DNA of 64,000 bases from Lactobacillus xujianguonis. Lineage in GTDB: Bacteria > Bacillota > Bacilli > Lactobacillales > Lactobacillaceae. A program made the position numbers and the translations under genes. This document shows positions 554 through 50,339 of the stretch, piece by piece. The stretch is taken from NCBI RefSeq assembly GCF_004009905.1, contig NZ_ML136873.1, positions 1-64,000 on the forward strand, given 5' to 3'. The notes under the pieces were generated by a model. The model did no database searches and was not told the DNA's origin. It worked only from the letters and a program-made list of their open reading frames with translations. Within the stretch, counting starts at the first letter, position 1. Each line of letters opens with the position of its first letter.

Positions 554-2129
554 ACTCATTAATTAAATGAATTTCTTTATCAAATAAATTATTCATATCC
601 TCATTAAAATTATGGGCAATAAAAATTATAGTATATGGACTCTTCATCAACTGTTTTAAAATTTTCATGGTTGCTCTTTGATCAACAGCACTTGTGCCTT
701 CATCAATCAAAAGAAAATTATCATCGTGAATAGCGGCTCGGGCTAAGACAATCTTTTGCCTTTGACCTCCAGAAACATTTAATGCTTGTAAACTTATTTT
801 AGTTTGCAATCCTAATGGTAATTTTTCAATATCTTGTTCAAATGAAAATTTATCAACATAATCTTTAACTTTACTTTTAAGATTAGAATTAAACATCGTA
901 ATGTTGTTTTCAATACTGTCAGGAAATAAAACAGGATCTTGTGGAATATATCCTAATTTAATTTCTTTAGGATTAATCTCATTCCCAGTATTATCCTTAA
1001 AAACAACTTTACCCGTATAAGTCTTAATCTTACCAAGAAGCACTTTAAATAAAGTGGTTTTCCCTGCACCAGAGTCTCCAGTTAATAATACCTTTTCACC
1101 TTTATTAATTTTTAAGTTAGGAAAATGAATCTCTTTACCATTAGCAAAACGAACTGAAACATTGTCAGTTGTCAAACTAACTGGTGACTTTAATACAAAG
1201 AAACTATCCACCTTAGTACTATCTTGATTAATTTCTTCGTTTAATTTATCGACTGAATGAATTTGACCCAACTCAGTAATTAACATTTTAAAAGAAGAAT
1301 TTATATAAAGACTAAAACTTTCAACCGTTACTATTACACCAAATAAAACCAAATGCTTAGTAACCAAAATAGCAGTCACAGCTAGTAAAGCAAATTGTAA
1401 TAAAGCGGCCGTTGCTTTGTTTAAGATGGTAAGTGCCTGCACTGTTCCTGTTCTTGTAACATTAGCTTTTTCTAAAGTATTAGAAGCTTGATCCATAACT
1501 TTAAATAGCTGTAAACCAGCAGCAAACTTACGTAACTCAGCTAAACCATCTAACCACTTCTCGACTGCATTTAAATAATTTCTATTTGCCCTAGATAAAC
1601 TTGAAGCGGCTCTTTGCAATGCGGGATGAAGAAATTTAGGTAAGTAAAAGCTTAACATACCCAATAATAAAACAACTACTAACAAGCTCCAATGAAATAG
1701 TAATAACCCGATACATGAAAAGATTATCTGTGCTGCGTAGTAGGGAATATCTGTATATACTGACAGCTTTGATTGTTTAATTAAATTCAAATCATTAGTT
1801 AAACGATTTTGAACTTTAGCTGGATTATGATTTTCTTGATCATAAAAGTAATGTCTTACAATTTTAGTTCTAACTAGATGATTATATTGTTGAATTTGCT
1901 GTTCAATCCAGTACTGACAAACATTCAACCCTATATAACTTATGGCAGAGGCAATTAAAGCCGCAATAATCAGAATAATGAACCGTTGCCATTTTTCTTC
2001 TTTAATAGCAGTAATCTGATAGGTTGTAATATAGCTAACTCCAATTGTTAAAGCTGAAGTCAGAAACTCCAAAATAAGTAAAGCAATCATTCTTGGCTTA
2101 TTAACAGAATACAATCCCTTAAAAGACAT
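552..2129 (-). CDS. ABC exporter, fused membrane and ATPase domains
   Basis: Half-transporter of the multidrug/peptide exporter type (ABC-B fold), expected to pump a small molecule or peptide out of the cell as a dimer. The first ~290 residues hold about six membrane segments. The ATPase half shows Walker A GDSGAGKTT near residue 355, a Q-loop YIPQD, the signature VSGGQ near 455, Walker B FLLIDE near 475 and H-loop FIAHN near 505. I prefer the ATG at 2129 because GAGGTG lies six bases upstream; GTG 2138 and ATG 2135 are alternatives. The stop of the upstream broken ABC gene lies just before it, so the two formed a translationally coupled pair, possibly a heterodimer. The substrate is unknown; the neighbouring insertion-sequence debris suggests an accessory cassette. 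Confidence 0.85.
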   Translation of the reverse strand: MSFKGLYSVNKPRMIALLILEFLTSALTIGVSYITTYQITAIKEEKWQRFIILIIAALIASAISYIGLNVCQYWIEQQIQQYNHLVRTKIVRHYFYDQENHNPAKVQNRLTNDLNLIKQSKLSVYTDIPYYAAQIIFSCIGLLLFHWSLLVVVLLLGMLSFYLPKFLHPALQRAASSLSRANRNYLNAVEKWLDGLAELRKFAAGLQLFKVMDQASNTLEKANVTRTGTVQALTILNKATAALLQFALLAVTAILVTKHLVLFGVIVTVESFSLYINSSFKMLITELGQIHSVDKLNEEINQDSTKVDSFFVLKSPVSLTTDNVSVRFANGKEIHFPNLKINKGEKVLLTGDSGAGKTTLFKVLLGKIKTYTGKVVFKDNTGNEINPKEIKLGYIPQDPVLFPDSIENNITMFNSNLKSKVKDYVDKFSFEQDIEKLPLGLQTKISLQALNVSGGQRQKIVLARAAIHDDNFLLIDEGTSAVDQRATMKILKQLMKSPYTIIFIAHNFNEDMNNLFDKEIHLINE

Positions 2130-22397: not shown

Positions 22398-23534
22398 TTA
22401 ATTACTGAATAAGGCGTTGATATTTAATGAAAGGATTCGATCCATAATTACTAAATCCCGTTTGGCATATTGCTTAGAACCTGATTCAAAAATGCATAGT
22501 AGTTGCCCCTTATAAGCAGTAATTTGTTCCAAGTAAGGCGGCATGATAATCACTTTTTCGGCATTCTTTTCGTCTAAGGCATTTACTGCGGTAGATGGGA
22601 AAATATAGAGCTTAGAATCACCACTGCCGTAGGACTGACTAAGAAAGATCTTATTGTCATAAATGGCAAGCCCTTGAATCTGTTTATCCATTGAAGTTTC
22701 CCCGGTCGGGTCTGACCAAGAAACAGTTCCCGTCACTGACTTAATTTCATTATTAGTAATTGAGCCCTTGTGTTTACCGCTACGAGCAATGGTGTAACCA
22801 GCAACCCGGCCGCGGCCGTACATGTTGAAGAAGCCGACAAATAATTGATTATCATAATAAGTAACCGCTGATGCTCTTTCAATGGAAGGAATTGAAATCC
22901 GGTGGTTATATTCAATCGGCATGCGCTTAGCCGGATGATACTTTTTCAGTGCAGCAAGTGAAAAAGACATTAAGGCTGAGGATTCACCCATTGAGCCCGT
23001 TACCCAGATATTCTTGGCAATCGGATCATAAGCAATCCCGCCTAGGTGCGGCTTACCTGGAACTTGGAGCGTCTTCAAGTATTTGCCGGTTTTCTTATCC
23101 AAAACATAAACCACTGATGCGTGCACGTGATCGCCATCATAAGCCGTCAAGAGTAAGTATTTGCCCGCCACTGTAATTCCTTGCGGCGTCATCGCTTCGG
23201 CAGTGTCCGTCTTTTTCGTCTTGAAGTTATAACTCTTAGTTGTCCGCAGTCCCGGAATAATTGCATCTTTACCATCCCAAGTGCGCGGTGGCACATAAGT
23301 CGAGGCCCGGTTAATAAAGGAATAATGCTGGCGCAACTTCTTTTGATAAGTAGCAAAATTCTGCCAGGCTGCACTGGTGTTAGTGCCGTCTTTTGCTTTA
23401 ACTAATTGGGGGCGATTGTGCCAGAATTGCTGGTCTTGGAACCATTCGTAGCCAAAATAGCCACCAGTCCCCACTGCGGCAATAATTAAAATTGCGCCTA
23501 AGATGTGCAATAATTTCTTACCGATTTTTTTCAC
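22398..23534 (-). CDS. membrane-anchored beta-propeller-like protein
   Basis: 378 residues: one N-terminal membrane helix (residues ~9-31), then repeated strand units with blade-like phrases (GKYLLLTAYDGDHVHASVVYVLD, GGIAYDPIAKNIWVTG, LAIYDNKIFLSQSYG), as in YncE-type propellers. The outer part would face the wall. No catalytic motif is seen. It is 117 bases upstream of dltX in the same direction and may share a transcript, hinting at an envelope role. Other frames over this gene are shadows on both strands. Confidence 0.65.
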   Translation of the reverse strand: MKKIGKKLLHILGAILIIAAVGTGGYFGYEWFQDQQFWHNRPQLVKAKDGTNTSAAWQNFATYQKKLRQHYSFINRASTYVPPRTWDGKDAIIPGLRTTKSYNFKTKKTDTAEAMTPQGITVAGKYLLLTAYDGDHVHASVVYVLDKKTGKYLKTLQVPGKPHLGGIAYDPIAKNIWVTGSMGESSALMSFSLAALKKYHPAKRMPIEYNHRISIPSIERASAVTYYDNQLFVGFFNMYGRGRVAGYTIARSGKHKGSITNNEIKSVTGTVSWSDPTGETSMDKQIQGLAIYDNKIFLSQSYGSGDSKLYIFPSTAVNALDEKNAEKVIIMPPYLEQITAYKGQLLCIFESGSKQYAKRDLVIMDRILSLNINALFSN

Positions 23535-23697
23535 GAAGAACTACCTTTCCGTTAAATTTTTGCAATTATAAATATTATACTTAACTTTCGATGCTTGCCA
23601 AATCAAGGTTTTTAGCCTAAGCAAAAACTTATTGTCCAATTATTACTAACTTTGAAACAATTTCATCACAGAAAGTTCACATTTATAAGTTATTTTT

Positions 23698-23859
23698 TAT
23701 GTGTAACGAAATACGAAAACAAAATAGTTCGTTACACTCAACTTTTTTGTTTTTCATTCATACTCCTCCAAGTAAATAATGAAATAAAAAAGAATTGGCT
23801 TTTGCCAATTTCATATCTATCCCTTTCGGCTCACGTGCGTTGCGTGAGCTTTTCTTTTT
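23698..23859 (+). ncRNA. candidate small RNA 1 with anti-Shine-Dalgarno loop
   Basis: The candidate has a 5' stem GTGTAACGAA / TTCGTTACAC (23701..23737), then a CU-rich stretch. A hairpin TACT-CCTCCA-AGTA (23761..23774) exposes CCTCC, inside an outer TTTCATT / AATGAAA pairing. A stem AATTGGC / GCCAATT and a terminator GCTCACG / CGTGAGC with TTTTCTTTTT (23829..23859) follow. A second copy with the same order lies at 23945..24060. Anti-SD loops plus terminators are the design of streptococcal csRNAs. No convincing protein is encoded; the minus strand has only a short GGAGGAGT-led frame. Confidence 0.6.
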
Positions 23860-23944
23860 GCCCTTAAAAAAATCTCTTACATTTCTTTACTTTTTCATAA
23901 TATTTTAGACACTTTTAGTTCACAATTTCACCGTATTATATAAA

Positions 23945-24060
23945 CCGTAACGAGATGGTAGAACTTGTTACATACTCCCACTTTTTTATTTCATTCATTC
24001 TTACTCCTCCAAAGTAGATGAAACTAATAAGGCTCGCATAACTTGCGAGCCTTTTTCCTT
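23945..24060 (+). ncRNA. candidate small RNA 2 with anti-Shine-Dalgarno loop
   Basis: Paralogue of the RNA at 23698. It has a 5' stem GTAAC / GTTAC (23947..23971), a CU-rich stretch and a TACT-CCTCCAA-AGTA hairpin (24002..24016) inside a TTTCAT / ATGAAA pairing. It ends in a terminator GGCTCGCA / TGCGAGCC with T runs (24031..24060). Upstream, TTCACA lies 28 bp before GTAAC, against 27 bp in copy 1. The -10 region TATTATATAA is good but no -35 is seen, which suggests an activator-dependent promoter. Confidence 0.62.
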
Positions 24061-24110
24061 TTTCGCAGAAGTTTAGTACACTAGAGGGAGAAAGCGAGGA
24101 AGACGATTAC

Positions 24111-24596
24111 ATGTTCTCACCATCAATTAAGCACCTGATCCAAGAAAAATCAGGCTCCTTTTTAATTCCAGCCAGTCGGATTGCCTTTGTGCAAGATGAT
24201 AATCCACTCTATCACGCTTTTTTGATTTTAACTAAAGTTAAATATTCAAAAATTCCTGTCTTAGACAAGGAAAAAAGAGTTGTTGGCTTACTTAGTTTGG
24301 CCATGATTACAGACGAAATGCTTAAGACGGATGAAATTTCAATCGATCCGTTAAACCAGTTAAAAGTGCGCGATGTGATGCAAACCAAGTTCGATAAGAT
24401 TAACTTTGTGCAAACTACCCTAGAAAAACAGCTGCACTTGTTAATTAACAATGCTTTTTTACCTGTCGTTGATGATCACGGCGTGTTTCAAGGTTTGTTA
24501 ACTAGGCGTGAATGGATTAAGGCTTTTAACTATGTGGTCCACACTTATGATAGCCATTATGAAGTAGTCAATATTAAGGAAGAAGTTGAGCAATAA
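24111..24596 (+). CDS. cbpB: CBS-domain protein, CbpB/DarB-like
   Basis: 161-residue soluble protein made of two CBS motifs: IPASRIAFVQDDNPLYHAFLILTKVKYSKIPVLD (first) and VRDVMQTKFDKINFVQTTL...FLPVVDDHGVFQGLLTRREW (second). Length and pattern match CbpB/YkuL (DarB), which binds cyclic di-AMP and reports to the Rel stringent-response enzyme or pyruvate carboxylase. That role is known for the family and inferred here. AGCGAGGAAG precedes the ATG. It has its own terminator. Confidence 0.75.
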   Translation: MFSPSIKHLIQEKSGSFLIPASRIAFVQDDNPLYHAFLILTKVKYSKIPVLDKEKRVVGLLSLAMITDEMLKTDEISIDPLNQLKVRDVMQTKFDKINFVQTTLEKQLHLLINNAFLPVVDDHGVFQGLLTRREWIKAFNYVVHTYDSHYEVVNIKEEVEQ

Positions 24597-28862: not shown

Positions 28863-29040
28863 TTGGATTGCCTCTTTTCTAAAATATTTTTATTCTATTT
28901 TTAATCATTTTACTACTATTAGAAAGGCTTTGGGGCAAAATTATCAAATTCGATAATTATCTCTTATTTGCATCTTTTTTTCAAAAATCATAGAATATTA
29001 ATTAACAATTTAATATTATTTGTGGTTGGGTTTTTGCATA

Positions 29041-29097
29041 AAGCTTTCAAGAATTGCTTATTTGGGTCAATAAGCACTAATCCTTGGAAGCTTTTTT
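29041..29097 (+). promoter_or_regulatory. folded leader with terminator-like end, upstream of antiporter
   Basis: An 11-bp stem AAGCTTTCAAG (29041..29051) / CTTGGAAGCTT (29083..29093), one G-U pair, encloses a second hairpin GCTTATT-TGGGTC-AATAAGC (29056..29075) and ends in six T. It lies 22 bases before the antiporter start, so it is part of that gene's leader: an attenuator or a compact ligand-sensing element. No known class is recognised. Confidence 0.55.
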
Positions 29098-49313: not shown

Positions 49314-50339
49314 ATGAAAAAATATCGCAATTACAGCACATTTCTATTAATTATCATCAGCTTAATGCTGCTAACTACTTGTCCAAGTAGGGCTTTAGCC
49401 AAAAGTCGCAATAATGCTCGTCTGCTTTTCCGCCTGCATAGCCTCTACCCAACAGTAGTGCAAAAGACAACGGTTAAAGGCAAACACATCTATGCCTTAC
49501 AAGAAGTCAACGAAGACACAATTATTAGTGCTGCACGCCGGCCGCATCATCGCCGAACAGCGCACTTTTCTATGCATCATCAATTAGTCTTGCGCAACTT
49601 CGGGCATACCCAGACCTTAGTCGCTACTAGTAAAGATCACTGGCTGGTAGGCGCCCGGCCCGTTCAATTCCGCGGTGAAGAATATAGTTGGGACACTGAA
49701 CTGGCACGGGTCCGTTTTCCTAAAAGAGGACATAAGACTATTGTACATTTAAGCAAGATCCCCCACTTAACTCATTTAAATTACGCAACCGACATGTCAC
49801 AAAAGAAGTTCAGCCGCGTTAAACGTTCTGAAGCAGCGATCTCGCCTGATTATAAATGGCTTTTAATTGCGACGGTTGATACCCATAACAACGGTCACTT
49901 TGCCGTCTACCACTTCAAGACGATCAATCATGCCTTAGACAAGGCGAGTCATCGCAAATATAAGGGCATTAACTTAAAGCACCACAAGCCCGTGTCTGCC
50001 TTTCACATTCGCCATTTCTTTGGCAAGCATTTAAATTCCATCCAGGGATACGCAATTGATAATCACTGCAACATTTATATTTCACGTGAGCACACTCCAA
50101 CAGGACGCAATAGTTCTTATCCCCGCGAGATTGTTAAGATCAAGTGGCATCAGACTAATCATAAGAAGTGGCGTCACTACCACGTTAATACGCGACACTG
50201 GAAGCATGTGGCGACTGAATTAGAGGGCATTGAAATAAATGGCAACAAGCTGCGCGTAACGGTGGCTTACCACGAGCGGAATTACACGCACCGCGTAACT
50301 AAAAATCGCATTTATCAAGTTGCGAATATTGTGAAGTAA
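49314..50339 (+). CDS. helveticin J-family secreted protein (class III bacteriocin type)
   Basis: 341 residues with a signal peptide (core LLIIISLMLL, cleavage after RALA). The mature part follows the helveticin J pattern in order: HTQTLV, GEEYSWDTELARV, EAAISPDYKWLLIATVD, GHFAVYHFKTIN, LNSIQGYAIDNHCNIYISRE and a terminal LRVTVAYHERN. Helveticin-type proteins are heat-labile killing proteins of about 37 kDa. It is very rich in histidine and arginine, unlike the classical protein. GGGGGAAT lies before the ATG. No dedicated immunity gene is recognised beside it. Confidence 0.78.
   Translation: MKKYRNYSTFLLIIISLMLLTTCPSRALAKSRNNARLLFRLHSLYPTVVQKTTVKGKHIYALQEVNEDTIISAARRPHHRRTAHFSMHHQLVLRNFGHTQTLVATSKDHWLVGARPVQFRGEEYSWDTELARVRFPKRGHKTIVHLSKIPHLTHLNYATDMSQKKFSRVKRSEAAISPDYKWLLIATVDTHNNGHFAVYHFKTINHALDKASHRKYKGINLKHHKPVSAFHIRHFFGKHLNSIQGYAIDNHCNIYISREHTPTGRNSSYPREIVKIKWHQTNHKKWRHYHVNTRHWKHVATELEGIEINGNKLRVTVAYHERNYTHRVTKNRIYQVANIVK

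Follow-up and report, generated by a model that had tools for sequence, protein, structure and literature searches.

Conserved tandem units of putative small RNAs with a predicted anti-Shine-Dalgarno surface and a candidate two-component activator box in Lactobacillus

The window analysed here is a stretch of 64,000 nucleotides from Lactobacillus xujianguonis (contig NZ_ML136873.1). Between a minus-strand gene at 22398-23534 and cbpB, the region 23640-24062 holds two consecutive plus-strand units (Table 1). In each unit a promoter is followed by a 5' stem-loop and a CU-rich single strand, then by a small hairpin presenting CCUCC and finally by an intrinsic terminator. Unit 1 also contains a middle hairpin and a second exposed CU-rich stretch. 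A previous sequence-only reading of this DNA had described two tandem csRNA-like small RNAs at this place, and the sequence elements that it named are all present in both units. It had also pointed to a TTCACA before each stem. This motif begins at 23676 in unit 1 and at 23919 in unit 2, 27 and 28 nt ahead of the respective stems as claimed, but it does not stand alone, being in unit 1 the second half of a direct repeat whose first half is degenerate in unit 2.

Table 1. Predicted features of the two small RNA units and their downstream neighbour, in window coordinates
Feature	Position	Strand	Basis
Direct repeat ATCACA-N5-TTCACA, unit 1; proposed response-regulator box over the -35 region	23665-23681	+	pattern match
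-10 element TATTTT, unit 1, 9 nt past the box	23691-23696	+	promoter pattern
Predicted transcript and predicted ends of sRNA unit 1 (type A)	23702-23858	+	fold, alignment A2 (39 copies), covariation
5' stem-loop, unit 1, GUAACGAA/UUCGUUAC; stem 23703-23710 with 23728-23735	23703-23735	+	fold, covariation
Anti-SD/anti-start hairpin, unit 1, UUCAUUCAUACUCCUCCAAGUA..AUGAA; loop CCUCCA 23765-23770	23752-23784	+	fold, near-invariance
Middle hairpin 23793-23810 and unpaired UAUCCCUUUC 23818-23827 (possible second seed), unit 1	23793-23827	+	fold, covariation
Intrinsic terminator, unit 1; stem 23828-23850	23828-23858	+	terminator prediction, covariation
Promoter, unit 2: TTCACA 23919-23924 and TATTAT 23934-23939, 9 nt apart; degenerate half-site upstream (GACACT)	23919-23939	+	
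Predicted transcript and predicted ends of sRNA unit 2 (type B)	23945-24060	+	fold, alignment A1 (47 copies), covariation
5' stem, unit 2	23947-23954 paired with 23964-23971	+	fold
Exposed ACUCCCAC, unit 2, between 5' stem and anti-SD hairpin; possible second seed	23974-23981	+	alignment, unpaired prediction
Anti-SD/anti-start hairpin, unit 2 (UUCAUUCUUACUCCUCCAAAGUAGAUGAA); CCUCC in loop 24006-24012	23994-24022	+	fold, alignment
Intrinsic terminator, unit 2; stem 24029-24053	24029-24058	+	terminator prediction, covariation
cbpB (cyclic-di-AMP-binding CBS protein), downstream neighbour, outside the RNAs	24111-24596	+	NCBIfam NF041630, 183.4 bits (cut-off 125)

Folded whole, the units are far more stable than shuffled sequences, with z = -5.98 for unit 1 (23703-23852) and -4.67 for unit 2, and none of 200 shuffles was as good in either case. 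The anti-SD hairpins are weak when folded alone (z -2.54, with 6 of 200 shuffles as good, in unit 1; z -1.19, with 24 of 200, in unit 2). The CCUCC letters are predicted to be unpaired in both units with a probability of ∼1.0, in support of the anti-SD region proposed before, to which an anti-AUG can be added: in the units of the window, the CAU beside CCUCC sits within the hairpin stem. There are two exposed C-rich sites per window unit. Neither terminator loop in the window is C-rich; some relatives have a C-rich loop there.

Used as a DNA query at E <= 0.01, the pair found a match in 70 of 75 Lactobacillus genomes, a count that takes in short matches (22-24 nt in genomes G061 and G065, ∼50 nt in G032), and these 70 include all 60 genomes that are >= 90% complete and <= 5% contaminated. 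A protein search with cbpB led to 34 Lactobacillus loci, every one of which has at least one unit, the nearest lying 85-181 nt upstream of the gene. Two units are found at 29 of these loci, three at two, four at one and a single unit at two; one single-unit locus (L061) ends at a contig edge, and the contig of the other (L065) carries another copy ∼20 kb away (L073). Copies also occur 2 kb from cbpB in L063 and on two separate contigs in G247. The earlier description of a pair therefore holds as to the tandem arrangement but not as to the number, which varies from one to four per locus in the genus, with relatives in other genera. Across all loci there are 112 distinct units: type A, resembling unit 1 (34, and 5 more that the type rule missed), type B, resembling unit 2 (47), and type C (26), seen for example in L. 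johnsonii, L. hominis and some copies of L. jensenii. Both the sequence and the order of the units are kept across the genus.

Base-pair changes were followed in alignments of 39 type A rows (38 distinct, including the five reassigned units) and 47 type B rows (43 distinct), the 26 type C units being left without a pair count. In type B, 98.1% of the cells pair and 11 of the 27 pairs have two-sided changes; two-sided cells number 56, against a shuffle mean of 9.5, and none of 500 shuffles reaches the covariation score. The corresponding values for type A are 95.9%, 15 of 27 pairs, and 82 cells against 27.6, again with 0 of 500 shuffles reaching the score, and in control alignments that had been slid the pairing falls to 32-50%. 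All six consensus pairs of the type A 5' stem show two-sided changes, the letters varying between species while the pairing is kept. Such changes also affect five of six pairs in the type A middle hairpin, four of nine in its terminator, and seven of nine in the type B terminator. The compensatory changes across species, whose absence the sequence-only reading had named beforehand as an argument against itself, are thus found in both types, and they join folding and genus-wide conservation in supporting its central claim of two tandem sRNA-like units. No two-sided change was seen in the anti-SD hairpin in either the 39 type A or the 47 type B rows. Because this hairpin hardly varies, covariation is neutral on it, and as it is also weak when folded alone, what is supported is its sequence. 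Together with the anti-AUG and the U-rich flanks it is nearly invariant in types A and B, and near-invariant anti-SD letters are what a target-pairing surface would be expected to look like.

The promoters of type A and type C units take the form (G/A/T)TCAYA-N5-TTCAYA-N9-TANNNT, in which the box proper is (G/A/T)TCAYA-N5-TTCACA, 9 nt ahead of the -10; for unit 1, window positions 23666-23696 fit TCAYAN5TTCACAN9TANNNT. By pattern, a box is found in 104 of the 112 distinct units (in type B its second half only), the units without it being five of type B and three of type C, and the gap to the -10 is exactly 9 nt in 99 of these 104. Among the 34 type A units the first half reads GTCACA in 19, GTCATA in 11, ATCACA in 3 and GTAACA in 1, and the -10 is TATACT in 22. 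Upstream of type B units there are further blocks in an 11-bp phase, which fit the repeat poorly, with no clear upstream half-site. The promoters had been proposed to be of the activator-dependent type, and a repeat laid out like a CiaR promoter supports this. The first copies in L063, L064 and L085, of type C, keep the RNA and have no TTCACA box; they are perhaps under other control.

Searched in 17 genomes of the genus, the strict box gave 23 matches against 2 for the reversed pattern, and 16 of the 23 are the promoters of these sRNAs. Of the seven that are not, two lie ahead of similar small peptides. In two species, at L118 (G000:C13:65019) and L117 (G060:C1:569389), a box-like promoter leads into a peptide (∼32-35 residues) that has a single hydrophobic stretch and resembles its counterpart at the basic end; it may be a further member of the regulon. 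When two mismatches were allowed there was no excess in the genome of L. xujianguonis (110 and 111 matches versus 103 and 120). One box-like site, TTCACACTTTCTTCACG (L097:1337-1353, minus strand), has a -10-like TATTCT at a similar distance and lies upstream of a putative spx ORF; spx was set aside, the site having been seen in one genome only. The box also recalls PhoP sites. A Pho regulon was dropped, though not disproved, as the pst operon of the same genome has no adjacent phoPR and only a short gap before it; in the stretch read (L095) this operon directly follows ribosomal-protein genes, and no phoPR is seen there.

A covariance model, one of the checks suggested by the sequence-only reading, was built from type B sequence downstream of the -10 and is therefore blind to the box. 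This model, R1, was run with strict filters on 301 genomes of the family; in the window it matches 23940-24056, unit 2 itself being among the sequences from which it was built. Outside the genus it found 12 places in 11 genomes at E <= 0.01, and a box lies within 35 nt upstream of 10 of the 12, but all scores are weak (35.2-42.5 bits) and the model missed at least seven genomes of its own genus, several of them with type C units (L070, L084, L085). The matches without a box, L137 and L140, look like plain terminators and were set aside.

The pattern TCAYAN5TTCACAN9TANNNT, searched in 201 genomes of the family, gave 231 matches (summed from a table) against 8 for the reversed pattern (counted by eye), distributed over 111 genomes and 29 of 40 genera. 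Thirty of the 231 loci were listed, and these are not a random draw; 24 of the 30 lead, as judged by eye, into C-rich hairpin RNAs, many of them with a hairpin around UUUACUCCUCCAAAGUAAA or with CCCC loops, and a plain count over 170 nt past the -10 of the 30 loci gives 173 CCC and 23 GGG. The C-rich RNA begins some way past the box in L149 and L151. Among the remaining listed loci, ORFs follow the box in L148, L152, L155, L164 and L169, and in L163 an RNA-like start is broken by an insertion; there (∼1500-1620, minus strand) the sRNA of another genus has seemingly, by eye, been cut by an inserted element just past its U-run. L133, again from another genus, has a unit ahead of a cbpB-like gene. 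Three box matches within ∼520 bases at G165:C1:1866437-1866953 suggest a tandem array.

Our best candidate for the regulator of the box belongs to a two-component system at L099:1510-3689, made up of a regulator with receiver and DNA-binding domains (L099:1510-2241) and a HAMP-HisKA kinase. In L. xujianguonis the system follows a gene read as putative manA and one with a sub-threshold match to SdpI. In a comparison of L. xujianguonis with 19 hand-picked genomes, orthologs of the L099 regulator were found in 11 of 11 box-positive genomes (9 genera, L. xujianguonis included) and in one of nine box-negative ones, for which Fisher's test gives 7e-5, the genomes being related and not independent. 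In the 10 other box-positive genomes the orthologs are 63-85% identical, and an L099-like kinase adjoins in all 10. The ortholog is absent from eight box-negative genomes of five genera, and the ninth, G082, has a regulator that is 62% identical. The reading covered every PF00486 gene of G082 (8 genes), of the eight L099-free negatives (36 genes) and of G005, G060, G165, G195, G222 and G264; six of seven were read in G156, and the candidate locus only in G147, G225 and G123.

A looser box pattern was also counted against its reverse. It shows no excess in L. xujianguonis (5 hits versus 4), G005 (2 versus 4) or G156 (3 versus 4); the counts are 10 versus 2 in G165, 6 versus 4 in G195, 6 versus 1 in G082, 4 versus 3 in G120 and 0 versus 2 in G150, and 11 versus 18 in the other eight box-negative genomes together. 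With this pattern TTCATA-type sites appear in G082 and its sister G120, and since the pattern is noisy the variant site of G082 is a candidate. A TTCATA-type site precedes the gene of a zinc-ribbon protein in G120 and, with the strict pattern, in G224. Ahead of the five OmpR-type regulator operons of L. xujianguonis, that of L099 included, no convincing box was found; a weak one lies upstream of the L099-type operon of a relative (L284).

Rfam 15 contains no family that matches either unit at the gathering threshold; weak matches to Phe_leader, MicC and others score far below it and were rejected. The sole match in the window lies elsewhere, a Na+ riboswitch (RF03071) at 29024-29075 (55.4 bits against a threshold of 40.5), just ahead of an ORF at 29084, a putative cation/proton antiporter. 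We found no description of these RNAs in lactobacilli among the titles and abstract beginnings of the full-text matches listed. A study of L. casei sRNAs gives, in the accessible part of its text, 86 intergenic candidates (PMC8220740), among which there may be a homolog.

The csRNAs of Streptococcus, controlled by CiaRH, had been named as similar in design. As far as the accessible part of the csRNA report goes (PMC3091779), the resemblance lies in the presence of several similar sRNAs per genome, in an unpaired anti-SD with an anti-AUG (CAU), in the terminator at the end, and in a 6-N5-6 direct-repeat activator box, placed ten nt before the -10 there and nine here. The letters of the box differ, however, being NTTAAG-N5-TTTAAG in csRNAs and (G/A/T)TCAYA-N5-TTCACA here, and the anti-TIR, which in csRNAs is unpaired between stems (PMC3091779, same part), is here found inside a weak hairpin. 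The CiaR box is absent ahead of the -10 of our units, whose promoters carry the TTCACA repeat or its second half, and the same portion of that source reports homologues of CiaRH (CiaH) to be absent from Lactobacillus. The likeness thus stands for the anti-SD/anti-AUG surface and the promoter layout, but not for membership in the csRNA family.

Listeria LhrC1-5 are likewise multicopy and, by the spacing of the RF00616 matches, tandem. They are controlled by a two-component system, LisRK, and several CUCCC motifs of LhrC pair with the SD region of a cell-wall-protein mRNA, according to the part of the report that is accessible (PMC4132741). Homology to LhrC was rejected both by a model search and by the LhrC promoters. 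Even at E 5 the RF00616 model finds nothing in the region. Run with strict filters on 395 genomes of the order, it matches 34, all of them in family f8, presumably the Listeriaceae, and none from the window's own family; TTCACA-N5-TTCACA before the -10 is seen in none of the 12 readable loci out of 20 LhrC loci. A further resemblance is to YclJ of Bacillus subtilis, also a two-component regulator, whose TTCATA-N5-TTCATA-like box is close to the one described here. The targets named for the YclJ regulon in the accessible part of its report are envelope-glycosylation operons, unlike the sRNAs found behind the present box (PMC7961091). We are therefore probably dealing, as judged from sequence comparison, with a csRNA/LhrC-like system assembled from other parts, with an RNA family and a box of its own and a probable regulator.

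Possible targets were sought as start regions complementary to the core TTGGAGGAGTAWGAATGA, with up to three mismatches, in 10 genomes. The search that the sequence-only reading had suggested does return an excess, 106 matches (20 of which are the RNA genes themselves) versus 26 for the reversed pattern, but this is not specific because the pattern itself contains SD and AUG. In L. xujianguonis the best non-self match (17 of 18 letters) lies before the gene of a secreted NlpC/P60 protein that also has a peptidoglycan-binding domain. A crude SD rule placed 49 ORF starts in the window, and the strongest duplex predicted for any of them is that of an exported helveticin-J-like protein (49314-50336; PF17312, 127.1 bits). 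Eight of the 86 non-self matches were inspected; judged by eye, seven of them read as exported or membrane proteins and one, L341, as cytosolic. The flank UUUUUCAU pairs with AUGAAAAA, and mRNAs of signal-peptide proteins (MKK..) would therefore be natural partners.

Taking these observations together, we favour, with a probability of about 0.72, the explanation that the units are separate plus-strand, trans-acting sRNAs, that an OmpR-type activator, best represented by L099, acts at the repeat, and that pairing with start regions blocks ribosomes. What the analysis shows directly is the sequence and its copies, their conservation, the covariation of the stems other than the anti-SD hairpin, the box with its spacing and the co-occurrence with the regulator; we infer that the units are transcribed, that the regulator binds, that the RNAs pair, which mRNAs they target and in which direction they exert control. 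According to this model, the sensor kinase would activate the L099-type regulator, which would bind (G/A/T)TCAYA-N5-TTCACA in place of a -35 element and so activate the promoter of each unit. Two sRNAs, of ∼155 and ∼115 nt, would then accumulate from separate genes. Their invariant stretch, which is largely unpaired and complements a Shine-Dalgarno sequence, a start codon and A-rich first codons, would pair with translation-initiation regions, probably those of exported and envelope proteins among others, and would block ribosome binding, with two or more copies providing a higher dose and a wider set of targets. In this way the sRNAs would probably switch off groups of genes when the sensor is triggered.

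The same sRNAs may instead be under another regulator, for example L100, read as LisR/CsrR-like, or the VanR-like L101, with the co-occurrence of L099 being a by-product of lineage. The box resembles the sites of several OmpR-type regulators and the compared genomes are related; moreover, the L099 operon itself is without a box in L. xujianguonis, and G082 has L099 without a strict box. Yet the eight box-negative genomes that lack L099 all possess WalR and the L101 type, and six of the eight possess L100, which thus fails to separate the two sets; among the OmpR-type regulators compared only L099 does so, nine genera standing against five. We therefore regard a different regulator as unlikely, though worth keeping in sight. 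It is also conceivable that the RNAs act mainly by binding a protein and not mRNA, as their repeated exposed C-rich motifs resemble those of titration RNAs, and a protein site might be as invariant as the anti-SD hairpin. This appears improbable to us, given that the invariance reaches past CCUCC to the anti-AUG and the U-rich flanks, as it would for start regions.

Two further alternatives deny that the units are free plus-strand sRNAs. All 34 cbpB loci have a unit upstream on the same strand, and in L133 one precedes a cbpB-like gene. This could point to leader (attenuator) RNAs of cbpB, and some of the weak Rfam matches are to leader families, albeit with scores far below gathering. But most loci contain at least two complete units that each have a promoter and a terminator of their own, and copies also occur away from the gene, at 2 kb in L063, at ∼20 kb (L073 versus L074) and on the two contigs of G247, which makes a leader function very improbable. 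Lastly, the sequence-only reading had itself raised the possibility that the conserved element is a tiny peptide encoded on the minus strand behind GGAGGAGUAUG, and an SD and an ATG are indeed present on the minus strand of both units, where they give perfect matches in the target search. Such a peptide is not conserved, however: in 34 type A copies (five units being unscored) the longest frame ranges from 7 to 47 residues and is broken at the covarying stem, the U-run that it crosses varies from 4 to 6 in type A and from 5 to 7 in type B, and the box, the -10 and the covarying terminators fit the plus strand. We find it hardly credible.

Starting from trans-acting sRNAs under an OmpR-type activator, one may speculate that RNA is the chief means by which one two-component system of the Lactobacillaceae acts, with its box across the family standing mostly before C-rich sRNAs. 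These would silence exported and envelope proteins by covering the SD, the start codon and the AAA codons that signal-peptide sequences typically contain. We put this forward tentatively and at somewhat less than even odds. If true, such an RNA-centred circuit would stand beside CiaR-csRNA and LisR-LhrC as an independent counterpart made of different parts. In the literature that we searched, little is said about regulatory sRNAs in lactobacilli. The present analysis adds a covarying RNA family in a group of probiotic and food bacteria, together with a DNA box, a sensor candidate and targets that can be tested. Should the model be right, another Gram-positive lineage would possess anti-SD sRNAs controlled by a two-component system, assembled from parts of a different kind, and the question of why such circuits recur would become testable.
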